A DNA stretch of 29,055 nucleotides from a virus, in IMG/VR virus record IMGVR_UViG_3300032053_000377, positions 1-29,055 of that record; one strand, given 5' to 3'. A program made the translations under genes and the position numbers. This document shows, in pieces, positions 138-28,768 of this stretch. Position 1 is the stretch's first letter, and the number at the start of each line of letters is the position of its first letter. The notes below the pieces were generated by a model. That model was not told the DNA's origin, searched no databases, and was given only the letters and a program-made list of their open reading frames with translations.

Positions 138-230
138 CGAAAGGATATTCACGGCGGCGTCGCCCAGTGCCATCCGTCCCATCCATGCGTCGGGGTGCCG
201 ATCAAGGTTAAAGACGTGCAAGTGATTCAT
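1..230 (-). CDS. GT-B-like glycosyltransferase, partial (3' end outside window)
   Basis: Only the first 76 codons are visible; the gene runs off the left edge. The start is the ATG at 230, whose reading begins MNHLHVFNLD. It overlaps the stop of the 208-1032 gene by 23 bp. The protein is a close paralogue of the complete gene at 1029-1790: both share the stretch from VDSIIRKYDL to READIPKTH almost residue for residue, while the first 30 residues differ. The complete copy carries a GASTGP motif resembling the donor-site loop of GT9 heptosyltransferases, so this copy is probably also a GT-B-fold sugar transferase. That assignment is by paralogy, because the visible part holds no catalytic motif. 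It is the last visible member of the sugar cassette that follows the tail-fibre genes. Confidence 0.7.
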   Translation of the reverse strand, partial: MNHLHVFNLDRHPDAWMGRMALGDAAVNILSVDSIIRKYDLDAIIIPHKNPTLTDLWKRAFGDRLVQREADIPKTH

Positions 231-1032
231 TAGCAACTTTGACCACCACTTCCATGTTGAGTAGCGCGGGACTTTCGATCACGTGATATAGGTCCGGGAA
301 TAGCGCTGAAAGCGCTGTCGGCACACTGACGTAGGTTGCTCGCGGGCGGGGCAGCGTAAAAATCACCGGATGGTGAAACGGATGCGGCACGAGGCCCACG
401 GCCGGCGTGTTGGTCAGTCGCGACAGATAGAGCGGCCCCGAGTCCACGCCAATGTGCAGTTCCGCGTGTGCGATGATGTTTGCCAGCCGTGCGAGCGGCG
501 GGCGCTTCTCCAGCCATACACGCTCATTGGAAAATGTCGGGTAGGGGTTGTGCCATTCTAGTAGAACGATGTCCAACGACGTGCGCTCCAAAAGTCCGTG
601 GACCAATGACGCGATCTGCCCGTCGTTCAGCGACTTGCTGCCCCAATAACCGCCCGGGCCGCCTTGTGGGTGCATGGAAATGTACGGCCGCGGCGTCGGC
701 GCTTCGCGTTGTTGGCCGGCGTTGATTTCTATTTCCACGGCCGCAAGCTCCTCTATCGTAGTGTCGATTCGTGGCAGCGGATGGAGGTTGACCGCACGAA
801 ATGCCTTGTTGCCGTTCTGCCACGTCTCATGGTTGGTAATGTTGGTGTCTTCCTGCCACCAACCAAGATCAAGCCCCGGTTCCGTTGTGAAGTGCGGCCC
901 GAAAATAATCTGCTTGTCATCCGGCGCGTTGACGCCGATGTCATATCCCTTCTGCCGATAGAGTTCGCAGGCCAGTCGAAAGTGAACGGCATCCCCAAGG
1001 CCGTGCGGAAAGTTTATGACGGTACGGTTCAC
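208..1032 (-). CDS. GT9-like (heptosyltransferase-type) glycosyltransferase
   Basis: The product is 274 residues. The N-terminal HGLGDAVHF (10-18) matches the glycine-rich GxGD acceptor-side loop of family 9 glycosyltransferases. HIGVDSGPLYL (193-203) matches their C-terminal donor-binding loop, which in heptosyltransferases holds ADP-heptose. The start is the GTG at 1032, giving a GTGA overlap with the stop of the 1029-1790 gene, the coupling seen throughout this operon. No signal peptide or membrane segment is visible, so it is probably cytoplasmic. Family 9 enzymes usually add heptose to LPS core. Here, next to an RfaE2-type enzyme and phage fibre genes, the acceptor could be a virion protein or host glycan. 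The substrate cannot be read from sequence. Confidence 0.75.
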   Translation of the reverse strand: MNRTVINFPHGLGDAVHFRLACELYRQKGYDIGVNAPDDKQIIFGPHFTTEPGLDLGWWQEDTNITNHETWQNGNKAFRAVNLHPLPRIDTTIEELAAVEIEINAGQQREAPTPRPYISMHPQGGPGGYWGSKSLNDGQIASLVHGLLERTSLDIVLLEWHNPYPTFSNERVWLEKRPPLARLANIIAHAELHIGVDSGPLYLSRLTNTPAVGLVPHPFHHPVIFTLPRPRATYVSVPTALSALFPDLYHVIESPALLNMEVVVKVANESLARL

Positions 1033-1790
1033 AGCAGACTTTCAATCGTCGAGGCAATGCGGAGGTGCTTGGCCAACACTTTTTGGCAGCGATCGAAAAA
1101 CCAGCCTCCGGACGGCGAGCGATGCGACTCCAAAACAATCTGCGGTATGTCGCTCATCAGGCACGCCCACGTTGGCCCCGTGCTCGCTCCCATGGCGAGT
1201 GAGGAGGCCGCAATGCACTGCGCCATGCCGGCAACCGTCGCGGGAAACCACGCCACGGGGCCGCCTTCGCAAAAGTGCGCGCATTGGTTCACGTGACCCA
1301 GCACGTTGATTGCGTACCCCTTGTCCCTGAGCATCGAGAGCGTCGCTCGCCACCACTCTGGAGTGTAAACTCTATTGCCGTCCGTGTGTTCCAGCGGGTA
1401 GACCATCGCTGCCTTGCTGGACGGCGCGCAGCGATACAGCACTGGCGGCACGATGTAGAGGTGTTGCGTCTCGAAAAACCCAAGCTCCCACCAGACCTGC
1501 TCGAAAATGTTCCAGCCGGCCTGGCCGTAGCAGCCATCCTGCCCGGTGGGGAAAGAAACAGACGCATAGCGGTGGGTTTTGGGAATGTCCGCTTCCCGTT
1601 GCACCAACCGATCCCCAAAGGCCCGTTTCCACAGATCGGTCAGGGTCGGATTCTTGTGCGGAATGATGATCGCGCCCAAGTCGTACTTTCGGATGATGCT
1701 GTCAACGGCGAGAATGCGTGCGGCGGTATCGCCGAGAGCCATCCATGACAGGTGGGGACGATCAAGGCTGAAGACGTGCAGGCGGTTCAT
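1029..1790 (-). CDS. GT-B-like glycosyltransferase, complete paralogue
   Basis: The product is 253 residues beginning MNRLHVFSLD. The start at 1790 forms an ATGA overlap with the stop of the methyltransferase gene and aligns with the start of the partial paralogue at 1-230; an upstream start at 1826 is less likely. MGASTGPTWACL (200-211) resembles the IGVDSGP donor loop of GT9 enzymes but with Ser-Thr in place of Asp-Ser, and the following SDIPQIVLES continues the usual strand. The N-terminal half is not clearly GT9-like. I infer a nucleotide-sugar-dependent transferase with a GT-B fold; the sugar and acceptor are unknown. Part of it (1570-1706) is almost identical to the partial gene at the window edge. 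Confidence 0.6.
   Translation of the reverse strand: MNRLHVFSLDRPHLSWMALGDTAARILAVDSIIRKYDLGAIIIPHKNPTLTDLWKRAFGDRLVQREADIPKTHRYASVSFPTGQDGCYGQAGWNIFEQVWWELGFFETQHLYIVPPVLYRCAPSSKAAMVYPLEHTDGNRVYTPEWWRATLSMLRDKGYAINVLGHVNQCAHFCEGGPVAWFPATVAGMAQCIAASSLAMGASTGPTWACLMSDIPQIVLESHRSPSGGWFFDRCQKVLAKHLRIASTIESLL
1570..1706. repeat. 137-bp near-identical direct repeat, copy 2
   Basis: This is the internal partner of bases 1-137. It lies inside the complete glycosyltransferase gene at 1029-1790 and covers roughly its codons 29-74. The sharp boundary between near-identity and divergence suggests recent duplication with gene conversion. Confidence 0.95.
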
Positions 1791-2371
1791 CGCAGCAGAT
1801 ATGCAAACCAGGTGTTGTGCAGCCACACGATGTCTTCTGACAGTTCCAATTCCCCCAGCGCCTTATCCACGCCACAACCATTGTGGACGTCATGCCAGGC
1901 GATCGTGCCGTGTTCCGTCAGCAGCTCGAGCGCGAGCCGACTGTCGGCCAATGCGTGGGGGTAGGTGTGATTGCCGTCGATGAAAAAGAAGTCGAATCTC
2001 TTCTCTCCCCAGTCGATTTTTTGAAACTCTTCTTTAATGATCGTGACACTCGGAAACGGTGCCGCTATGTGACCGAGTTCCGCCTGCGAAAGATATTCTC
2101 CCGCTTGATTCCCCGGCCGCTCAGCGGGTGGGATCTTGTCGCCAGGATCAACGGTTGTGATTAGCAGGGTCGGAAACCGCTGCGCGATCAGGCGGGCAGT
2201 GTAGCCGCGGTGGGTGCCGACTTCCAGGAACGTGGCTGGCTTCCGCTTGCGGATTAGGTGCAGCAGACAGCAAAGATCGATCCACGGCGTACACTGCACG
2301 TCGAGGTTGTCGTAGAACCCGCTCTCGTCGGTCTCAAAGAGAAAATTATGCAGGGGCTTGTCGCGCAACAC
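1787..2371 (-). CDS. Class I SAM-dependent methyltransferase
   Basis: About 194 residues. FLEVGTHRGYTARLI is SAM-binding motif I of a Rossmann methyltransferase, TTVDPGD is the acidic end of strand 2, and FDFFFIDGNHTYPHALAD followed by GTIAWHDV matches the Methyltransf_24 / CmcI-like group, whose members often O-methylate sugars. A GGAGA Shine-Dalgarno lies 8 bases before the GTG at 2371; a TTG at 2377 is also in frame but sits too close to it. The gene overlaps the nucleotidyltransferase gene by about 26 bp and ends in an ATGA overlap with the next glycosyltransferase. In this setting it probably methylates a sugar or glycan made by its neighbours, which is an inference. Confidence 0.75.
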   Translation of the reverse strand: MLRDKPLHNFLFETDESGFYDNLDVQCTPWIDLCCLLHLIRKRKPATFLEVGTHRGYTARLIAQRFPTLLITTVDPGDKIPPAERPGNQAGEYLSQAELGHIAAPFPSVTIIKEEFQKIDWGEKRFDFFFIDGNHTYPHALADSRLALELLTEHGTIAWHDVHNGCGVDKALGELELSEDIVWLHNTWFAYLLR

Positions 2372-2837
2372 TGGCAATTTCTCCGATAATCTCGCTGGTC
2401 GATCGACACGGAAAACGAGGGAACAACAGCACGCGGCCGCCGTGCGATTCTACAATCTCAGAACCGCACACCCAATGCGCCCAGTCGGCTCCCTTGACCA
2501 GCACGTTGGGGATGATTTCTGCAACCATTGCCGCCGGCGTGTCATCGTCGAAAACGGTAACATAGTCGATACACGTCAGTCCAGCCAAGATCATGGCTCG
2601 CTCGCCCTGCGGAACGATCGGCCGTGACGACCCCTTCAGCCGCTTCACGCTGGCATCTGAATTGATCCCGACGATCAGCACGTCCCCTTGCGCTTTGGCA
2701 AACTGGAGGCATTGGAGGTGGCCGACGTGAAGAAGATCGAAGCAACCGTTGGTGAACACGATCAACCGGCCGGCGGCGCGCAGCTTCACAACCTCGGACA
2801 GAAGCGCAGCCAGTGGTAGGATTTTATTTGCCGTCAT
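2346..2837 (-). CDS. rfaE2: RfaE2/HldE C-terminal-type heptose-1-phosphate nucleotidyltransferase
   Basis: The product is 163 residues, the size of a stand-alone RfaE domain II. Family marks are clear: VFTNGCFDLLHVGH (27-40) with the HxGH nucleotide-binding motif, VGINSDASVKRLKG (56-69), RPIVPQGERA (72-81), LVKGADW (113-119) and the C-terminal STSEII (147-152), equivalent to the STTxII motif. The family transfers AMP (or CMP in some relatives) to D-glycero-D-manno-heptose 1-phosphate to give the activated sugar used by heptosyltransferases. The ATG at 2837 makes an ATGA overlap with the upstream GT9 gene. The kinase half of HldE and the GmhA/GmhB steps are not in the window, so the host must supply the heptose phosphate. 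The open frame extends upstream, but that part is a shadow of the GT9 gene. Confidence 0.88.
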   Translation of the reverse strand: MTANKILPLAALLSEVVKLRAAGRLIVFTNGCFDLLHVGHLQCLQFAKAQGDVLIVGINSDASVKRLKGSSRPIVPQGERAMILAGLTCIDYVTVFDDDTPAAMVAEIIPNVLVKGADWAHWVCGSEIVESHGGRVLLFPRFPCRSTSEIIGEIASVARQAPA

Positions 2838-3778
2838 AGCAACCGCTCCAGGACGTCCAGCACTTCGCCGGGCCGAATCATCGCCATGCACTTGGCCACC
2901 GGCCGCAAGCCGCCCAAAACCGGATGGTCGCACAAGCTCTTGTTCTTTTCGTCGGCCGCATCGCCGAAGGGAACAACCCGCGACTTCCAACATGCGCCGC
3001 CTTTGCAGCACGCCAGCGACGATCCGAAAGAGTGAAAGGTTGTCTGTCGCGGGTACTGAACCCACTGGATCGGCTCGCGCCCGCCAAGCAGGCAGAGATA
3101 CGGCTTCTCCCACGCGGCCATCAAGTGTTGCAGGTAGGTCACGGGCCCCATTCCGCCCTGCGCATGGTAGGTGAGTCGGATCAACTGCCGCTGGTCCGTC
3201 TTCCCCCGCAAGTCCAGCACGCCTCCCAAGTCGGGATGATCGTGCGATTTCTCGCCGATCTGAACCCACTGGATCCGTCCGCGCGTGGCATTTACGACTT
3301 CCTGGTAACTTTCCACCGGCCACTGTTTGGCGGTAAAGTCGTTTTTCACGCCCGCATTCACGATCCAAAACGGAATGGACCGCCCCGCTAGTTGTTGCTC
3401 CCACACGTCGCCGATCTGGTTTCGCCACTTTTTTTCGTCGTCGGATAGATACAAGTGCGGCCGATTGGTCGAGAGCATCAACGAGATGCCAAGTTGATCC
3501 CCCAGATTTTGCGTGTAGCCATGGAGGAAATGCAAGAGCGTTTGGTTGCATCGTTGGATCAAGGGATATTGCAAAGTGAGTCCACGACCGTCGGCGTCCG
3601 CGATCTCGCTGACGTGTGGGTTGTGCTCCCAAATGTCCGGCACGGGGCAGCGGATGGCCGTTGCGTAGCGGCCGGGATAGGCGGCGTGGAGTGATTCCAC
3701 GGCTGCCGTGGCAGTCAGCACGTCGCCCGGTGAAAGCGGAATATGCAGAATCAGTCGCTCCGGCTCGCTCGCTGTCAC
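2834..3778 (-). CDS. GT9-like heptosyltransferase with C-terminal cysteine cluster
   Basis: The product is 314 residues. The N-terminus (LILHIPLSPGDVLTATAAVESL) has the GT9 acceptor-side loop, with Pro before Gly-Asp. The middle carries FWIVNAGVKNDFTAKQWP, the usual start of the nucleotide-sugar domain, and QGGMGPVTYLQHLMAAWEKP (207-226) is the donor loop region. The C-terminus holds Cys257, Cys258, Cys263-Trp264, Cys283, His285 and Cys297. This recalls the four-cysteine iron finger of the autotransporter protein-heptosyltransferases (TibC/AAH type), which glycosylate serines. The resemblance is from memory and is only an inference. It starts at a GTG in a GTGA overlap with the preceding gene and runs by ATGA into rfaE2. 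Its position right after the Ser-rich fibre genes fits a role in modifying them. Confidence 0.78.
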   Translation of the reverse strand: MTASEPERLILHIPLSPGDVLTATAAVESLHAAYPGRYATAIRCPVPDIWEHNPHVSEIADADGRGLTLQYPLIQRCNQTLLHFLHGYTQNLGDQLGISLMLSTNRPHLYLSDDEKKWRNQIGDVWEQQLAGRSIPFWIVNAGVKNDFTAKQWPVESYQEVVNATRGRIQWVQIGEKSHDHPDLGGVLDLRGKTDQRQLIRLTYHAQGGMGPVTYLQHLMAAWEKPYLCLLGGREPIQWVQYPRQTTFHSFGSSLACCKGGACWKSRVVPFGDAADEKNKSLCDHPVLGGLRPVAKCMAMIRPGEVLDVLERLL

Positions 3779-4240: not shown

Positions 4241-5464
4241 CTAGGGGACGTAAATGTACTTGACGGTGCCGATGATCATGCCCGGCGTTCCGCCGATCGT
4301 GCAAGAAACGGTAATATCAAATGGCCCAAACGTCTGGGGAAGGGGAACTTCGTCGATCGTCAGGGTATGGATCAACACCGGCCCCCCGCCGCCATAGGCG
4401 TAAGTCGTCATCACGGTCTGATCCGGGCAGTCGATATGGTTGGAACACACGTCGGCCGACCAAATCTTGAGGGTCTCGAATATGGTCTGAGGATCGTACA
4501 ACCACTCGGGTTTGTCGGGGTATGGTGTGACTTCATCCATTAACTCCAGCTCGTCGACGTTGAAACTGATCGTGTGATCGTCGCTCGTGAAATTCAATGA
4601 CGTTTGAACCCAATAACCGGACGGGAGGCCGCTGCTGCTCGAGCTCGACTGGCTGGAACTTGGCTGGCTCGAACTTGGCTGGCTGGCCTGGCTGGGACTG
4701 GGCGGCCATGTCGATATATCTGTTGAGCCACTCAGTATGCTAGAAGGTGGTGGCCCGCCCTCGCTGCTGGACGGCGGTGGCCCGCCCTCGCTGCTGGACG
4801 GCGGTGGCCCGCCCTCGCTGCTGGACGGTGGCGGCCCGCCCTCGCTGCTGGAGGGCGGCGCCCCGCTCTCGCTGCTGGACGGCGGCGGCCCGCTCTCGCT
4901 GCTGGACGGCGGCGGCCCGCTCTCGCTGCTGGAGGGCGGCGGCCCGCTCTCGCTGCTGGAGGGCGGTGGCCCGCCCTCGCTGCTGGAGGGCGGCGGCCCG
5001 CTCTCGCTGCTGGACGGCGGCGGGCCGCTCTGACTTGAGCTCGGTTGGCTGGGGCTGCTGCTGGGGCTGCTGGGGCTGCTGGAGCTGCTGGGGCTGCTGG
5101 ACCCGCTGGGGCTGCTGGAGCTGCTGCTGGGGCTGCTGGAGCTGCTGGGGCTGGGCTGGCTGTCACTGGGCCCGCTGGGGCCACTGCTGGGGCTGGGCTG
5201 GCTATCACTGGGCCCGCTGGGGCCACTGCTGGGGCTGCTGGGCCCGCTGGGGCTGGGCTGGCTGCTGCTGGGGCTCGGGCTCGGGCTGCTGCTCTGCGAG
5301 ATGGAGGACGACGACTTGGCGGATCCGGTTTCTTCGGTCTCCGAAATCAGCATCGGCATGGAGGCCGAGTCGGACGCCCAGACGTCGAATCCCGCGCCGC
5401 GGCCGAGGACCGGGGCGCTTTGCGTGTCCGATACCCAACAGGTGAGGTCGGTCGCGGTGCTCAT
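4241..5464 (-). CDS. Ser/Pro/Gly-rich repeat tail-fibre-like protein
   Basis: The product is 407 residues. A short N-terminal domain contains two related motifs, CWVSDTQSAPVL and VWASDSASMPML. Residues of roughly 50-290 are almost entirely Ser, Pro, Gly and Glu: first irregular PSSS-type blocks with a duplicated 14-residue unit, then eleven copies of a 9-residue unit of the type GPPPSSSES. The last 120 residues form an ordinary folded domain rich in beta-type sequence, ending VSCTIGGTPGMIIGTVKYIYVP. There is no signal peptide, as expected for a virion protein. It overlaps the LamG adhesin gene by ATGA. I infer an extended, possibly glycosylated stalk joining two small domains, most likely part of the tail tip or fibres. 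The number of repeats may vary between relatives. Confidence 0.7.
   Translation of the reverse strand: MSTATDLTCWVSDTQSAPVLGRGAGFDVWASDSASMPMLISETEETGSAKSSSSISQSSSPSPSPSSSQPSPSGPSSPSSGPSGPSDSQPSPSSGPSGPSDSQPSPSSSSSPSSSSSSPSGSSSPSSSSSPSSPSSSPSQPSSSQSGPPPSSSESGPPPSSSEGGPPPSSSESGPPPSSSESGPPPSSSESGPPPSSSESGAPPSSSEGGPPPSSSEGGPPPSSSEGGPPPSSSEGGPPPSSILSGSTDISTWPPSPSQASQPSSSQPSSSQSSSSSSGLPSGYWVQTSLNFTSDDHTISFNVDELELMDEVTPYPDKPEWLYDPQTIFETLKIWSADVCSNHIDCPDQTVMTTYAYGGGGPVLIHTLTIDEVPLPQTFGPFDITVSCTIGGTPGMIIGTVKYIYVP
4739..5032. repeat. 27-bp coding minisatellite, 11 units
   Basis: About eleven tandem copies of a 27-bp unit encode the 9-residue GPPPSSSE(S/G) block of the fibre protein. Copies differ mainly at GAC/GAG and at C/T changes. 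Because 27 is divisible by three, gain or loss of a unit keeps the frame. Confidence 0.95.
5151..5234. repeat. 42-bp tandem duplication within the fibre gene
   Basis: Bases 5151-5192 are repeated at 5193-5234 with one difference. They encode the duplicated 14-residue unit (SQPSPSSGPSGPSD type). The flanks (5044-5290) are further CTG/GGGG-rich low-complexity coding sequence. Confidence 0.9.
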
Positions 5465-14418: not shown

Positions 14419-14790
14419 TTAGGCGATTCGTTTGGTGTGGACGCGGAGCACGGTCTCCAGGGCGTCGCAATATGCGAATGGCGGGCCGTCATTGGGGGCG
14501 AGGACTTCGAATATCTCGCCGGCCGGTCCGTCCGTTACCGTTATTCGGTGGCCCTTTTGGGGCTTCTTCTGGGTGCCCCGCAGAACCAGCAGGGCGGCTG
14601 GGAAAATAAAATCGTGGTCGTTGTACTCGATCCGCGCGACACTGCCATCGCTCACCTCGAAGGCGCTGCGGCCGAACGTAGCATCAAAGGTCGCGCTGTC
14701 CTCGCCGTCGCTATAGGTAATCTCGCCGCCCATGACGTAGGCGGTGGCCCGCAGGGAGGCCTCCAGGATGGCCGTCAAACGGTTGGACAT
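14419..14790 (-). CDS. Head-closure / head-tail joining-like protein
   Basis: The product is 123 residues from the ATG at 14790 (MSNRLTAILEASLRATAYVM). It has the pattern of small neck proteins: an N-terminal helix, several strands (RIEYNDHDFIFPAALLVLRG), a GHRITVTDGPAGEIFEVLAPND hairpin and a final strand (LETVLRVHTKRIA). The start overlaps the end of the glycosyltransferase-methyltransferase gene by 16 bp; the open frame upstream of 14790 is a shadow of that gene. Assignment rests on size, strand pattern and order after the capsid gene. Confidence 0.55.
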   Translation of the reverse strand: MSNRLTAILEASLRATAYVMGGEITYSDGEDSATFDATFGRSAFEVSDGSVARIEYNDHDFIFPAALLVLRGTQKKPQKGHRITVTDGPAGEIFEVLAPNDGPPFAYCDALETVLRVHTKRIA

Positions 14791-16118
14791 TGGACCTTTT
14801 CGAAGACGCGGAGGTTGTGCTTGAACCAGGGCAGCGTGGCGGCGGCCCGCAAAAGGGAGGGGTCGGTTTCGCGGTAGCCGTTGGCCACGAAAATCCGCGT
14901 CACGTAGTGCGGATCGCGCTCGTTGACGTGCCCGAAGCCATCTTTTCCCGGCACACACCAACTGATCACGATCCCGCGGCGGGCGGCGCCGAAAAGGTTT
15001 ACGAGGAATTCGCTCTCCAGGGCCGGCGGGATGTGCTCGGCCACCTCCAGGCAAATCGCCCAATCGGCCGAGATCTCGGGCGGGAGCGGCCTCGTTAAGT
15101 CGTGAACAAAAATCTGGCCGTTGGCCTGGCTGATGGCCTCGGTATGCGGATTCCCGTCGCAACCCGTGGCCTCGATCTGGGCGTCGCGGAGGGCCGCAAC
15201 GTAGCGTCCTGGGCCGCAACCGAGGTCCAAGACGGTCTGTCCGGCCAAACGCTCACAGAGGGCCGCTGCGAGTCCTGAATCGAAGAGGTGTCGCTCCTCC
15301 GTTTGGTCGGTCCATGCTCCCGTCGGCAGGATGGTCTTCTCGGCGGCCTGGCGGGCCCATTTCGATTCTTCGTCGCCTTCCTTGAATTTTCCCCACGGCT
15401 CCCAATTCGGAAAGCTGAAATCGCCAATGTGCCCGAGGCGGACTTCGCGGGTGGCGACGATCCTCCCACCATGCTCCCAAAGGGTGCGGCTGAAATACCA
15501 GTCTTCCGACTCCCGCTGGGACTTGGCCTGGCCGTCGGCCTGGCGGTACACGCGGGTGGGAAAATTGAAGCAAATCGGGACCGTGCCGTCCGGCTCCGTC
15601 GTGCGGAAGACGGGCCGCCGCAGGTCGCAAACGATGCACCCGGTACCGCTTAAGAGCATCTGGCCGGGGAATCCGATATCCGCGGCCTCGAACGTCGGCG
15701 GCATGCGATGGATTTCGTGCATCGTGAAGCGGCGGTATGGCTCCCAAGGATCGTCCGGGTCGCCGATGCCGCAGTTGGCGATGCCCCTGGCATCCTTGAT
15801 CGGAACGATCACCGAGACGGCGTCGGCCTGGTGGCGGTCGCAAATGTCCAACAGGATGTCGCCCCAGCCGGGGTCGACGTCCGAATCGGCATGCAACATG
15901 GCGAAGTGCGAGATCTCGCCGGCGGCGGCCATGTTCAGGGCGTCGACCCATAAAACGTTGAAGGCGTCCCATGCGGCCAGGGGGCTGTTGAGGAGGGTCA
16001 CTTCGTGGCGACCCACGGTGAACGTGTGCAGGCCGCGCGCAGCGGCAAAGGATAGGCTGGGGCCCGGGAACCCCAGCGCTACCTTGTAGCCCTGAACAGG
16101 GACGCCTGCTGCGCTCAT
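14775..16118 (-). CDS. Glycosyltransferase (GT-A-like) fused to SAM methyltransferase
   Basis: The product is 447 residues with two domains. Residues of about 10-235 resemble a GT-A transferase: HADSDVDPGW (76-85) carries a DxD-type metal site, and SEDWYFSRTLWEHGGRI (204-220) matches the acidic catalytic region plus the strand before a conserved His230. Residues of about 265-447 are a class I methyltransferase: VLDLGCGPGRY (296-306), EATGCDGNP (317-324) and LEVAEHIP (357-364). The start at 16118 has a strong GGAGG six to seven bases upstream. It lies inside the head-to-tail morphogenesis operon, between the decoration-like and head-closure genes. This suggests that it modifies a virion protein or is needed at the same stage; the acceptor is unknown. 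Confidence 0.78.
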   Translation of the reverse strand: MSAAGVPVQGYKVALGFPGPSLSFAAARGLHTFTVGRHEVTLLNSPLAAWDAFNVLWVDALNMAAAGEISHFAMLHADSDVDPGWGDILLDICDRHQADAVSVIVPIKDARGIANCGIGDPDDPWEPYRRFTMHEIHRMPPTFEAADIGFPGQMLLSGTGCIVCDLRRPVFRTTEPDGTVPICFNFPTRVYRQADGQAKSQRESEDWYFSRTLWEHGGRIVATREVRLGHIGDFSFPNWEPWGKFKEGDEESKWARQAAEKTILPTGAWTDQTEERHLFDSGLAAALCERLAGQTVLDLGCGPGRYVAALRDAQIEATGCDGNPHTEAISQANGQIFVHDLTRPLPPEISADWAICLEVAEHIPPALESEFLVNLFGAARRGIVISWCVPGKDGFGHVNERDPHYVTRIFVANGYRETDPSLLRAAATLPWFKHNLRVFEKVQCPTV

Positions 16119-16133
16119 TTGCCCCCCTCCGGG

Positions 16134-16550
16134 CTAGAACAACAATTCGAGCGTCATGCTCTTGGCGGCGCAATTTCCGGCGTTGGTGGAGCTGACCACC
16201 TTGGCCCGCACGTACCGCAAGCAATTGCTCGGCAGCTTGGCTCGGAACGTTCCGGCCGCGGCTCCGGTGTTGCCCGTCTGCACGATGCATCCGGTGGCGA
16301 TCGCCGTCGCGGTCGCAAAGTTGGCGACCGAGGAGCATTCGAGCGTGTAGGTCGTGGTGACCGTGTCCGGCAATTGGCCGGTGGTCAAGGCCGGGGCCGA
16401 AAGCAGCAGCTCGCACAGCGCCAACTGGGCGGCGTTTTGACTGGGCGCCGCTCCGAGGTCGAGGGCCGTGCCTCCGACGGTGCCCGCGGCCGCCGGTAGA
16501 GCGTCAGTTGCGATGAGTTTTTCATCGCGGAGGTTTAACAACTTGGTCAT
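16134..16550 (-). CDS. Capsid decoration-like protein
   Basis: The product is 138 residues. After a short N-terminus (LLNLRDEKLIATDALP) comes a strand-rich domain with Thr/Ala-rich loops and the segment KLPSNCLRYVRAKVV near the end. The pattern resembles small Bbp16-type proteins that follow the capsid gene in some phages and decorate the shell. The ATG at 16550 has AAGGA nine to ten bases upstream. It is the gene immediately after the major capsid protein. The family assignment is from overall pattern and neighbourhood, so moderate. Confidence 0.55.
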   Translation of the reverse strand: MTKLLNLRDEKLIATDALPAAAGTVGGTALDLGAAPSQNAAQLALCELLLSAPALTTGQLPDTVTTTYTLECSSVANFATATAIATGCIVQTGNTGAAAGTFRAKLPSNCLRYVRAKVVSSTNAGNCAAKSMTLELLF

Positions 16551-16611: not shown

Positions 16612-17562
16612 CTAGAGGGCGAGCGTTTCGGTGGCGATGATCCCCGAGCTGACATAGATCGGGATGGCGTTTCCGGCGATGCCCATCACTTCCGTCGGGA
16701 ACGGGGCCGGTGCGCCGGTCGGGTTCACGGCGGTGCGGCCGGCCTGCAGTTGGCCGTGGGACCGCTTGCCCATGAAAATCGCGTCCGGTGTGGTTCCCTC
16801 CGGGAATTTTGCCAGCGCGGTGGAAATCAGGGCGTCGGTCAGGCCCTTCCCGCTGTCGGCGGTTAATTTCTTGATCCGCACGACGCTCAACAGGCTGGCG
16901 ACCTGCAGGCCCGGGTAGCCCAGGAAGGTCTGAACGTAGGCTTCCATGTAGCTCTCGGGGGTCGTGCCCATCGGGACGCTCTCGATGCGGATGTCGCTGG
17001 GCTGGAGTTCGCCGTTGTTGCCCCAGACCCATTGCACGTGCTTCGGTCCGAAGCGGACCAACCACACGCTGCTGCAGGTGCTGTCGGTCGTGCCTGCGGC
17101 ATCGACGGACATGTTGGTGGCGTCGTACATGTCGAGCAGGCCGGGAAATGCCTTGGCGTTGGCGAGGCCGCTGGCGGCGCCGTAATAAAACTGCTTGCTG
17201 AGGGCCTGCATCTCGCCTTCGAGGGTGCCTTCGGCCTCCTGGGCGATGAAGACCAACGCGCCGTCTTCGTGCCGGTCGGCGACGGCCTTGTCACACTGCC
17301 ACCGCGGGTTGAGAATGTAGGTCTCAACCAGGCGGTTTTCGTATTGGTGAACGTGGGGCACGACGCCCTCGTTGGCGTTGCGAAAGCTGCCGGCGGTGTT
17401 GCCGAGGCCGACGCGGACGAGGGTCTTGTAATTCAGACCTTTGATCGTGCGCGCCGAAATAACCCGCAATTCGGGATGGACTTTGGTCGTTTCGTCGATC
17501 AGGCCGACCACGGCGTCGCTGCCGTTTGCTCGGGCGATGTCGAGTAGGGTGGGGAGTGCCAT
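16612..17562 (-). CDS. Major capsid protein
   Basis: The product is 316 residues. The opening MALPTLLDIARANGSDAVVGLI and the segment ARTIKGLNYKTLVRVGLGNT followed by FRNANEGVV are typical of a group of phage capsid proteins that I associate with the epsilon15 gp7 / Bbp17 type (HK97 fold). The remaining body is Gly/Ala-rich and strand-rich, ending at a hydrophobic C-terminus (IPIYVSSGIIATETLAL). It comes after protease/scaffold and before a decoration-like gene, the standard order. The Shine-Dalgarno is weak (GAAAG). There is no N-terminal scaffold extension, consistent with a separate scaffold domain on the protease. Confidence 0.82.
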   Translation of the reverse strand: MALPTLLDIARANGSDAVVGLIDETTKVHPELRVISARTIKGLNYKTLVRVGLGNTAGSFRNANEGVVPHVHQYENRLVETYILNPRWQCDKAVADRHEDGALVFIAQEAEGTLEGEMQALSKQFYYGAASGLANAKAFPGLLDMYDATNMSVDAAGTTDSTCSSVWLVRFGPKHVQWVWGNNGELQPSDIRIESVPMGTTPESYMEAYVQTFLGYPGLQVASLLSVVRIKKLTADSGKGLTDALISTALAKFPEGTTPDAIFMGKRSHGQLQAGRTAVNPTGAPAPFPTEVMGIAGNAIPIYVSSGIIATETLAL

Positions 17563-26888: not shown

Positions 26889-28243
<1,355 letters not shown>

Positions 28244-28247
<4 letters not shown>

Positions 28248-28768
28248 CGGGTTGCTCCTGATTGCGAAAGAGCCAGGACGCGATGCATTAGGTAGGCGTC
28301 CTCGCTGCTGTCCTGGTATGACTTGCGCAGGATTCGCGCGGCTCGAAAGCCGTTGGCGCGGAGAAAAAGTTGGGCGGGAAGATTGCTTTCGCCGACCTGA
28401 AACGTGATCCACTTGCGGCCGGGGTGTGAAAGGCGCCGGGTCAGGTGGGTCAGCATTTCCCGCCCGATGCCCTGGCGCTGTCGCTCGGGCTTGACCGCGA
28501 TGTTAAGCACCTCAATGCTGGTCTTCCGCAACTCGTAAATCAGATAGCCGGCGACGTCCTCGTCGGCCTCCGCGACCATGCCGATGCAAGCTTGCTGTCG
28601 CAGCACGCGTACAAACTCGGCCTCCATCCAGGGGTACTCGAAGCAGGCTTGTTCGATCGAGAGAACCTGGCAAAGGTCGTGCTGTATCATCCATCGAACG
28701 CGCGGCGGGGCGGCGGGGCGGCGGGACGAGGCGCCGAAGAGGCTGCTAGAATTGCTATCGCCCATCAT
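28244..28768 (-). CDS. RimI-like GNAT N-acetyltransferase
   Basis: The product is 174 residues from the ATG at 28768 (a TTG at 28810 would add 14 residues). GNAT marks are clear: ACFEYPW (41-47), similar to the RimI substrate loop; strand IEVLNIAVKPERQRQGIG (85-102) with the RQRQGIG acetyl-CoA pyrophosphate loop; and ESNLPAQLFLRANGF, the common NxxAxxLYxxxGF end. RimI acetylates the N-terminus of ribosomal protein S18, and related enzymes act on other protein N-termini. The gene overlaps the thioredoxin-collagen gene by ATGA, so it belongs to this operon and is probably not the housekeeping rimI. Its target may be a phage or host protein. Confidence 0.78.

Follow-up and report, generated by a model that had tools for sequence, protein, structure and literature searches.

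In this study, we found that the window, the whole 29,055-nucleotide stretch of viral DNA analyzed here, carries between its head and neck genes a single gene for a predicted GT-A glycosyltransferase fused to a SAM-dependent methyltransferase. This late enzyme probably glycosylates a head or neck protein, with the fused domain tailoring the sugar. More tentatively, related genes may form a modular virion-glycosylation system of uncultured phages, in which one GT-A family sits at the head/neck junction of several capsid lineages and a swapped tailoring enzyme diversifies the particle sugar; the partners in such a system would be methyltransferases of two families, placed N- or C-terminally, DUF3431, and a radical-SAM-like domain carrying an unusual Cx5Hx2C motif. 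Virion glycosylation is a modification of a known kind, while the glycosyltransferase family, the fusion pattern and their breadth are new within the libraries searched.

Gene Organization in the Window

The fusion gene and its surroundings are listed in Table 1. Farther upstream lie the genes for terminase gpA, a lambda-type portal and a head protease, then that of the GP7-type capsid protein, and neck genes recognized by Pfam or PHROG matches follow past the fusion gene. The first-pass annotation had described a two-domain sugar enzyme placed between a decoration-like and a head-closure-like gene; the methyltransferase was recovered by Pfam and the GT-A fold by predicted structure, and the ORF indeed precedes the Phage_H_T_join_3 gene. 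The strong ribosome-binding site and the 16-bp overlap with the next gene, both noted earlier, were confirmed as well: the minus strand reads TAG (the stop of the decoration-like gene) CCC GGAGG GGGGCAA ATG, and the overlap suggests translational coupling with the head-tail joining gene. No promoter of the fusion gene's own was predicted, and its late-operon position agrees with the structural-protein-like timing proposed at first. The label of the decoration-like neighbor stands by synteny, because Phage_cement_2 occupies the equivalent slot in relatives, but the window protein itself matches phrog_5707 only (unknown function, E 0.002). Another contig, L002, is 100% identical to the window across 8974 bp.

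Table 1. Positions of the main features in the window.
Feature	Position	Strand	Remark
Left-end sugar cassette, five ORFs	208..3778	-	
GT9-like ORFs	208-1032 and 2834-3778	-	Below Pfam cut-off
265-aa ORF, no assignment	1029-1826	-	Within sugar cassette
Methyltransf_24	1787-2377	-	Within sugar cassette
Cytidylyltransferase-like protein	2346-2837	-	CTP_transf_like 4e-17; PDB matches to cytidylyltransferases
Phage_H_T_join_3 head-tail joining protein	14419..14790	-	Downstream of fusion; E 7.4e-22
Predicted GT-A glycosyltransferase-SAM methyltransferase fusion	14775..16118	-	ATG start, 447 aa
16-bp overlap, fusion gene/head-tail joining gene	14775..14790	-	Fusion stop 14775, next-gene start 14790
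Predicted class I SAM methyltransferase (Methyltransf_23)	14829..15281	-	Residues about 280-430; motif I DLGCGPG
N-domain, predicted GT-A fold	15360..16097	-	Residues 8-253; structure model and invariant motifs
Shine-Dalgarno GGAGG	16126..16130	-	7 nt upstream of fusion-gene ATG
Decoration/cement-like protein, candidate acceptor	16134..16550	-	138 aa; by synteny; 15 bp before fusion gene
Major capsid protein, GP7 family, candidate acceptor	16612..17562	-	E 5e-15

The phage had been credited with at least five glycosylation-type enzymes, which is broadly right. The left-end cassette and the fusion together provide two GT9-like ORFs, one Methyltransf_24 protein, one cytidylyltransferase-like protein, one unassigned ORF and the fusion itself; the count is soft, as both GT9-like ORFs fall below the cut-off and one ORF has no assignment. 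The cytidylyltransferase-like protein may activate a donor or precursor. Part of the unassigned ORF is duplicated in a 92% identical direct repeat (positions 1-175 and 1570-1744), one copy of which is cut by the contig end. Elsewhere, an ORF downstream of the tail genes (4241-5464, minus strand) encodes a Ser/Pro-rich protein in which a 27-bp repeat for GPPPSSSES occurs eleven times (4684-5088), and the region 26889-28412 (minus strand) combines a thioredoxin-like stretch, recognized by eye, with collagen-like G-X-Y repeats (Collagen above cut-off).

The N-Terminal Domain

With eight relatives in the alignment, AlphaFold modeled most of residues 8-250 as a GT-A fold at a pLDDT of about 90. The best structural match of the N-domain was STIV A197 (Z 17.0, 2.6 Å over 172 residues, 15% identity; Foldseek E 2e-7), followed by LH3 (Z 15.7), COLGALT1 (15.2) and mimivirus R699 (14.9), these three at 9-13% identity; GalNAc-T2 ranked lower, and TarP, RmlT and chondroitin polymerase were also among the matches. 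Several of these enzymes, LH3, COLGALT1 and R699 among them, act on proteins, and structural likeness does not in itself indicate donor or acceptor.

Across 38 of 38 diverse homologues, a proline, H76-x-D78 (HxD), a phenylalanine, E205-D206-W207 (EDW) and H230-x-G232 (HxG) were invariant. HxD is a variant of the DxD-type metal motif, EDW corresponds to the xED motif and HxG would supply the C-terminal metal-binding histidine; a metal-dependent GT-A enzyme should show just such motifs, and from their invariance we infer the metal and base roles. No glycosyltransferase family was found for the N-domain of the window in Pfam, in PHROGs or by a PDB profile search, and the best glycosyltransferase-family scores among all members were E 0.018 (Glycos_transf_2) and 0.0028 (Glyco_trans_2_3, one member). 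The predicted identity of the N-domain as a GT-A glycosyltransferase, together with its position, is well supported, and the domain apparently defines a new, undescribed family within the libraries searched. The open-access literature yielded no description of a glycosyltransferase-methyltransferase fusion.

The C-Terminal Domain

Judged by its Pfam match to Methyltransf_23 (33.8 bits against a cut-off of 27, E 3.6e-8) and by motif I, the C-domain is a class I SAM-dependent methyltransferase. This half of the AlphaFold model had a pLDDT below 50, and the radical-SAM half of one relative (L008) folded poorly too, each with a thin alignment; because of these poor models, both halves were assigned by sequence alone. 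Among the fused methyltransferases, some have matches to TylF and RMNT_CmcI, which are sugar O-methyltransferase families, and several match phrog_2675, labelled 'DNA methyltransferase' (best E 2e-22). When the fusion was compared with isolate phages by tblastn, the methyltransferase domain alone matched, in Caulobacter phage Cr30.

Relatives and Exchange of Fusion Partners

The initial search gave a full-length match in the same phage only, because the remainder of the protein differs in relatives, where the N-domain alone matched (42-44%). A profile search with the glycosyltransferase domain then collected 57 IMG/VR loci, some of them redundant. The domain is joined to Methyltransf_23 in the window, L104, L129 and L135, and to a C-terminal Methyltransf_24 in L003 (L013 and L147 by eye), L003/L004 having this family in place of the window methyltransferase. 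An N-terminal Methyltransf_24 precedes it in L106 and L136 by Pfam (L107, L110 and L151 by eye), SPASM/radical-SAM-like parts follow it in L005 and L117 by Pfam (L007, L008, L011, L012, L113 and L118 by alignment or eye), DUF3431 accompanies it in L131, and many loci have the glycosyltransferase without a partner. All eight radical-SAM-like C-terminal parts (for example L005:6996-7835) have a SPASM-like end and Cx5Hx2C, as in CNLGSMHAACP, replacing CxxxCxxC; L118 has an additional Cys ahead of the His. In L129:5809-8229, a single chain of 806 aa contains a glycosyltransferase, a methyltransferase and a phosphoribosyltransferase, and its end may be HAD-like.

A maximum-likelihood tree of 40 glycosyltransferase domains, the deep branches of which are poorly supported, required at least nine changes of fusion state and at least ten of capsid type. 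Unlike states occurred even in sister pairs (L125 with no partner and L129 with a methyltransferase; L135 with a methyltransferase and L137 with none). Conversely, a relative of the window methyltransferase (28-36% identity) lies C-terminally in L025, L089 and L021, behind another, mostly glycosyltransferase-like N-terminal part.

The family appears to belong to uncultured phages. Neither 50,697 phage records, searched by tblastn at E 1e-5 to 0.01 with the window protein and three further N-domain queries, nor plasmids gave an N-domain match. Two short patterns, which detect close relatives only, were scanned against 84,980 species genomes and had one match, L015, a prophage-like contig from a Chloroflexi bin, where capsid and connector genes surround a glycosyltransferase identical to that of viral contigs. 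A profile run over 400 genomes of the same phylum recovered L015 and one marginal partial match, with no other convincing homologue. Homologues confined to host polysaccharide loci, the pattern that the first-pass annotation had set against a virion role, were thus not what we observed, as the pattern scan and the phylum profile revealed none in a cellular locus. Just before its HK97 capsid gene, the phage of L015, in which the glycosyltransferase stands alone, also has genes for a GT2/GT92-like protein and an FkbM-type methyltransferase (L015:2-1482).

Placement Beside Capsid Genes

In 28 of the 34 contigs with a recognized capsid gene, this gene lay 0.5-2.4 kb upstream of the glycosyltransferase on the same strand. 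Random placement in the same contigs gave a mean of 3.5 and a maximum of 10 in 5000 trials, a comparison that is not a strict probability because the contigs are interrelated and collections of virus contigs favor structural genes. Five capsid families were represented at these loci, the window included (Phage_capsid_4, HK97 [Phage_capsid], P22, SU10 and GP7), some Pfam capsid models having been run on 39 contigs and others on the 12 that had a weak hit or no assignment at that stage. Relatives show Phage_cement_2 upstream of the glycosyltransferase and H_T_join_3, HCP, attachment or connector proteins downstream. A search for the same fusion near capsid genes, suggested at the outset, succeeded in L104, where a glycosyltransferase with Methyltransf_23 has a GP7-like capsid/decoration pair on one side and neck genes on the other. 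The six contigs off this slot have the glycosyltransferase 1.4-4.8 kb before the capsid gene (L120, L125, L127, L129), 3.6 kb after it (L122) or 30 kb away (L145).

As a control, we scanned the surroundings of methyltransferase-domain relatives at 33 phage loci. The commonest neighbors were glycosyltransferases and collagen-like proteins, and capsid, cement and joining families were absent among the 25 commonest of 59 neighbor families; this control is weak, because two capsid models match just four of 36 control contigs.

Proposed Function and Alternative Explanations

Considering the above results, we propose that the GT-A domain, expressed late, would transfer a sugar from a nucleotide-sugar, with H76-x-D78 and H230 holding the metal and E205-D206 acting as the base motif, roles suggested by their invariance. 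The fused methyltransferase would then methylate the newly added sugar or a sugar built upon it. The acceptor would be a structural protein of the head or neck encoded in the same operon, such as the decoration protein, the major capsid protein or the tail tube, and the phage might benefit from shielding or an altered surface. Gene position and precedent make a virion protein a fairly likely acceptor. We infer methylation of the sugar because of the fusion itself, the repeated coupling on the tree and the TylF and RMNT_CmcI matches; the methyltransferase might instead have a different substrate. Since the glycosyltransferase is kept in its slot while the tailoring partner is exchanged, the final particle glycan would differ between phages, and the recurrence of this arrangement in many phages suggests that they decorate their own particles with sugar.

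Phage glycosyltransferases that alter host polysaccharides, such as Gtr-type systems, are common, and it is conceivable, if rather unlikely, that the target is instead the surface of the host cell, for receptor masking, superinfection exclusion or serotype conversion, the place in the head operon being incidental. The sugar cassette elsewhere in the window and the presence of TarP, RmlT and chondroitin polymerase among the structural matches would fit such a role. However, the gene recurs in the late head/neck operon across five capsid families with no promoter of its own predicted, the cellular searches described above placed no homologue in a polysaccharide locus, and late expression is a poor moment for receptor masking, save on released debris. 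A serotype-converting Gtr system (gtrA/gtrB by attP/integrase) was rejected, as the fusion gene has head genes on one side and neck genes on the other; no GtrA-type match occurred among the neighbors scanned.

Mosaic phage genomes swap accessory genes at module borders, and some relatives carry the gene before the capsid gene, as might be seen if it were an accessory 'moron' hitchhiking at a recombination-prone head/neck junction without a functional tie to the virion. We consider this improbable in view of the tight coupling (a 15-bp gap and a 16-bp overlap), the lack of a predicted promoter and the recurrence of one glycosyltransferase family with changing partners; in the limited methyltransferase-relative control, moreover, sugar genes and collagen-like proteins were the neighbors and a recognized capsid gene was rarely near.

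Glycosylation of a collagen-like virion protein, by analogy with the action of LH3, COLGALT1 and R699 on collagen, would suit the high rank of these enzymes and the collagen-like repeat protein of the window (27048-27245, minus strand), but a Collagen match occurred in just five, the window among them, of the 31 records examined, many of which are fragments; collagen was therefore rejected as a general acceptor, and this explanation is very improbable. Modification of DNA bases is less credible still: phage glycosyltransferases can target DNA and several fused methyltransferases match phrog_2675, but T4 AGT and BGT have the GT-B fold and are produced early, whereas the window enzyme is a predicted GT-A protein of the late head operon and would fall outside the T4-type class, and the methyltransferase partners match small-molecule and sugar O-methyltransferase families of Pfam.

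To our knowledge, glycosylated virions have been described for few phages, and mycobacteriophages account for most of these. If the glycosyltransferase family proposed here to act on the virion is fixed beside the capsid genes of five families in uncultured phages, particle glycosylation would be far more widespread. Furthermore, the exchanged tailoring enzymes would offer a natural series for testing what sugars are presented on phage particles and to what end (shielding, adsorption or stability).

Comparison With Known Systems

The loci of L025, L089 and L021 share a related C-terminal methyltransferase with the window but differ in their N-terminal parts, and the commonest recognized neighbors at loci of this type are glycosyltransferases and collagen-like proteins, not capsid genes. 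Mimivirus R699, LH3 and COLGALT1 share the GT-A fold and act on protein acceptors; their target is collagen, and a collagen-like gene is present in few of the phage records. The closest structural match, STIV A197, is likewise a viral GT-A enzyme; it is essential, and its suspected target is the major coat protein, which is glycosylated (PMC10551542). It differs in belonging to an archaeal turreted virus with an unrelated capsid, in having no fused tailoring enzyme and in its identity of only 15%.

Virion glycosylation in mycobacteriophages (Corndog gp35-gp38, Che8 gp110 and Myrna) provides the nearest functional parallel, although no isolate phage record matched the window glycosyltransferase domain by tblastn. 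Glycosylation of the capsid is reported to require gp38 in Corndog and gp110 in Che8 (PMC12363180). Corndog has an O-methyltransferase and three glycosyltransferases between portal and protease, and peptide recovery from its capsid subunit was poor (PMC4351075). Corndog and the window thus both combine glycosyltransferase and methyltransferase in the head operon, as separate genes in the portal-protease interval in the former and as one fusion after the decoration-like gene in the latter.
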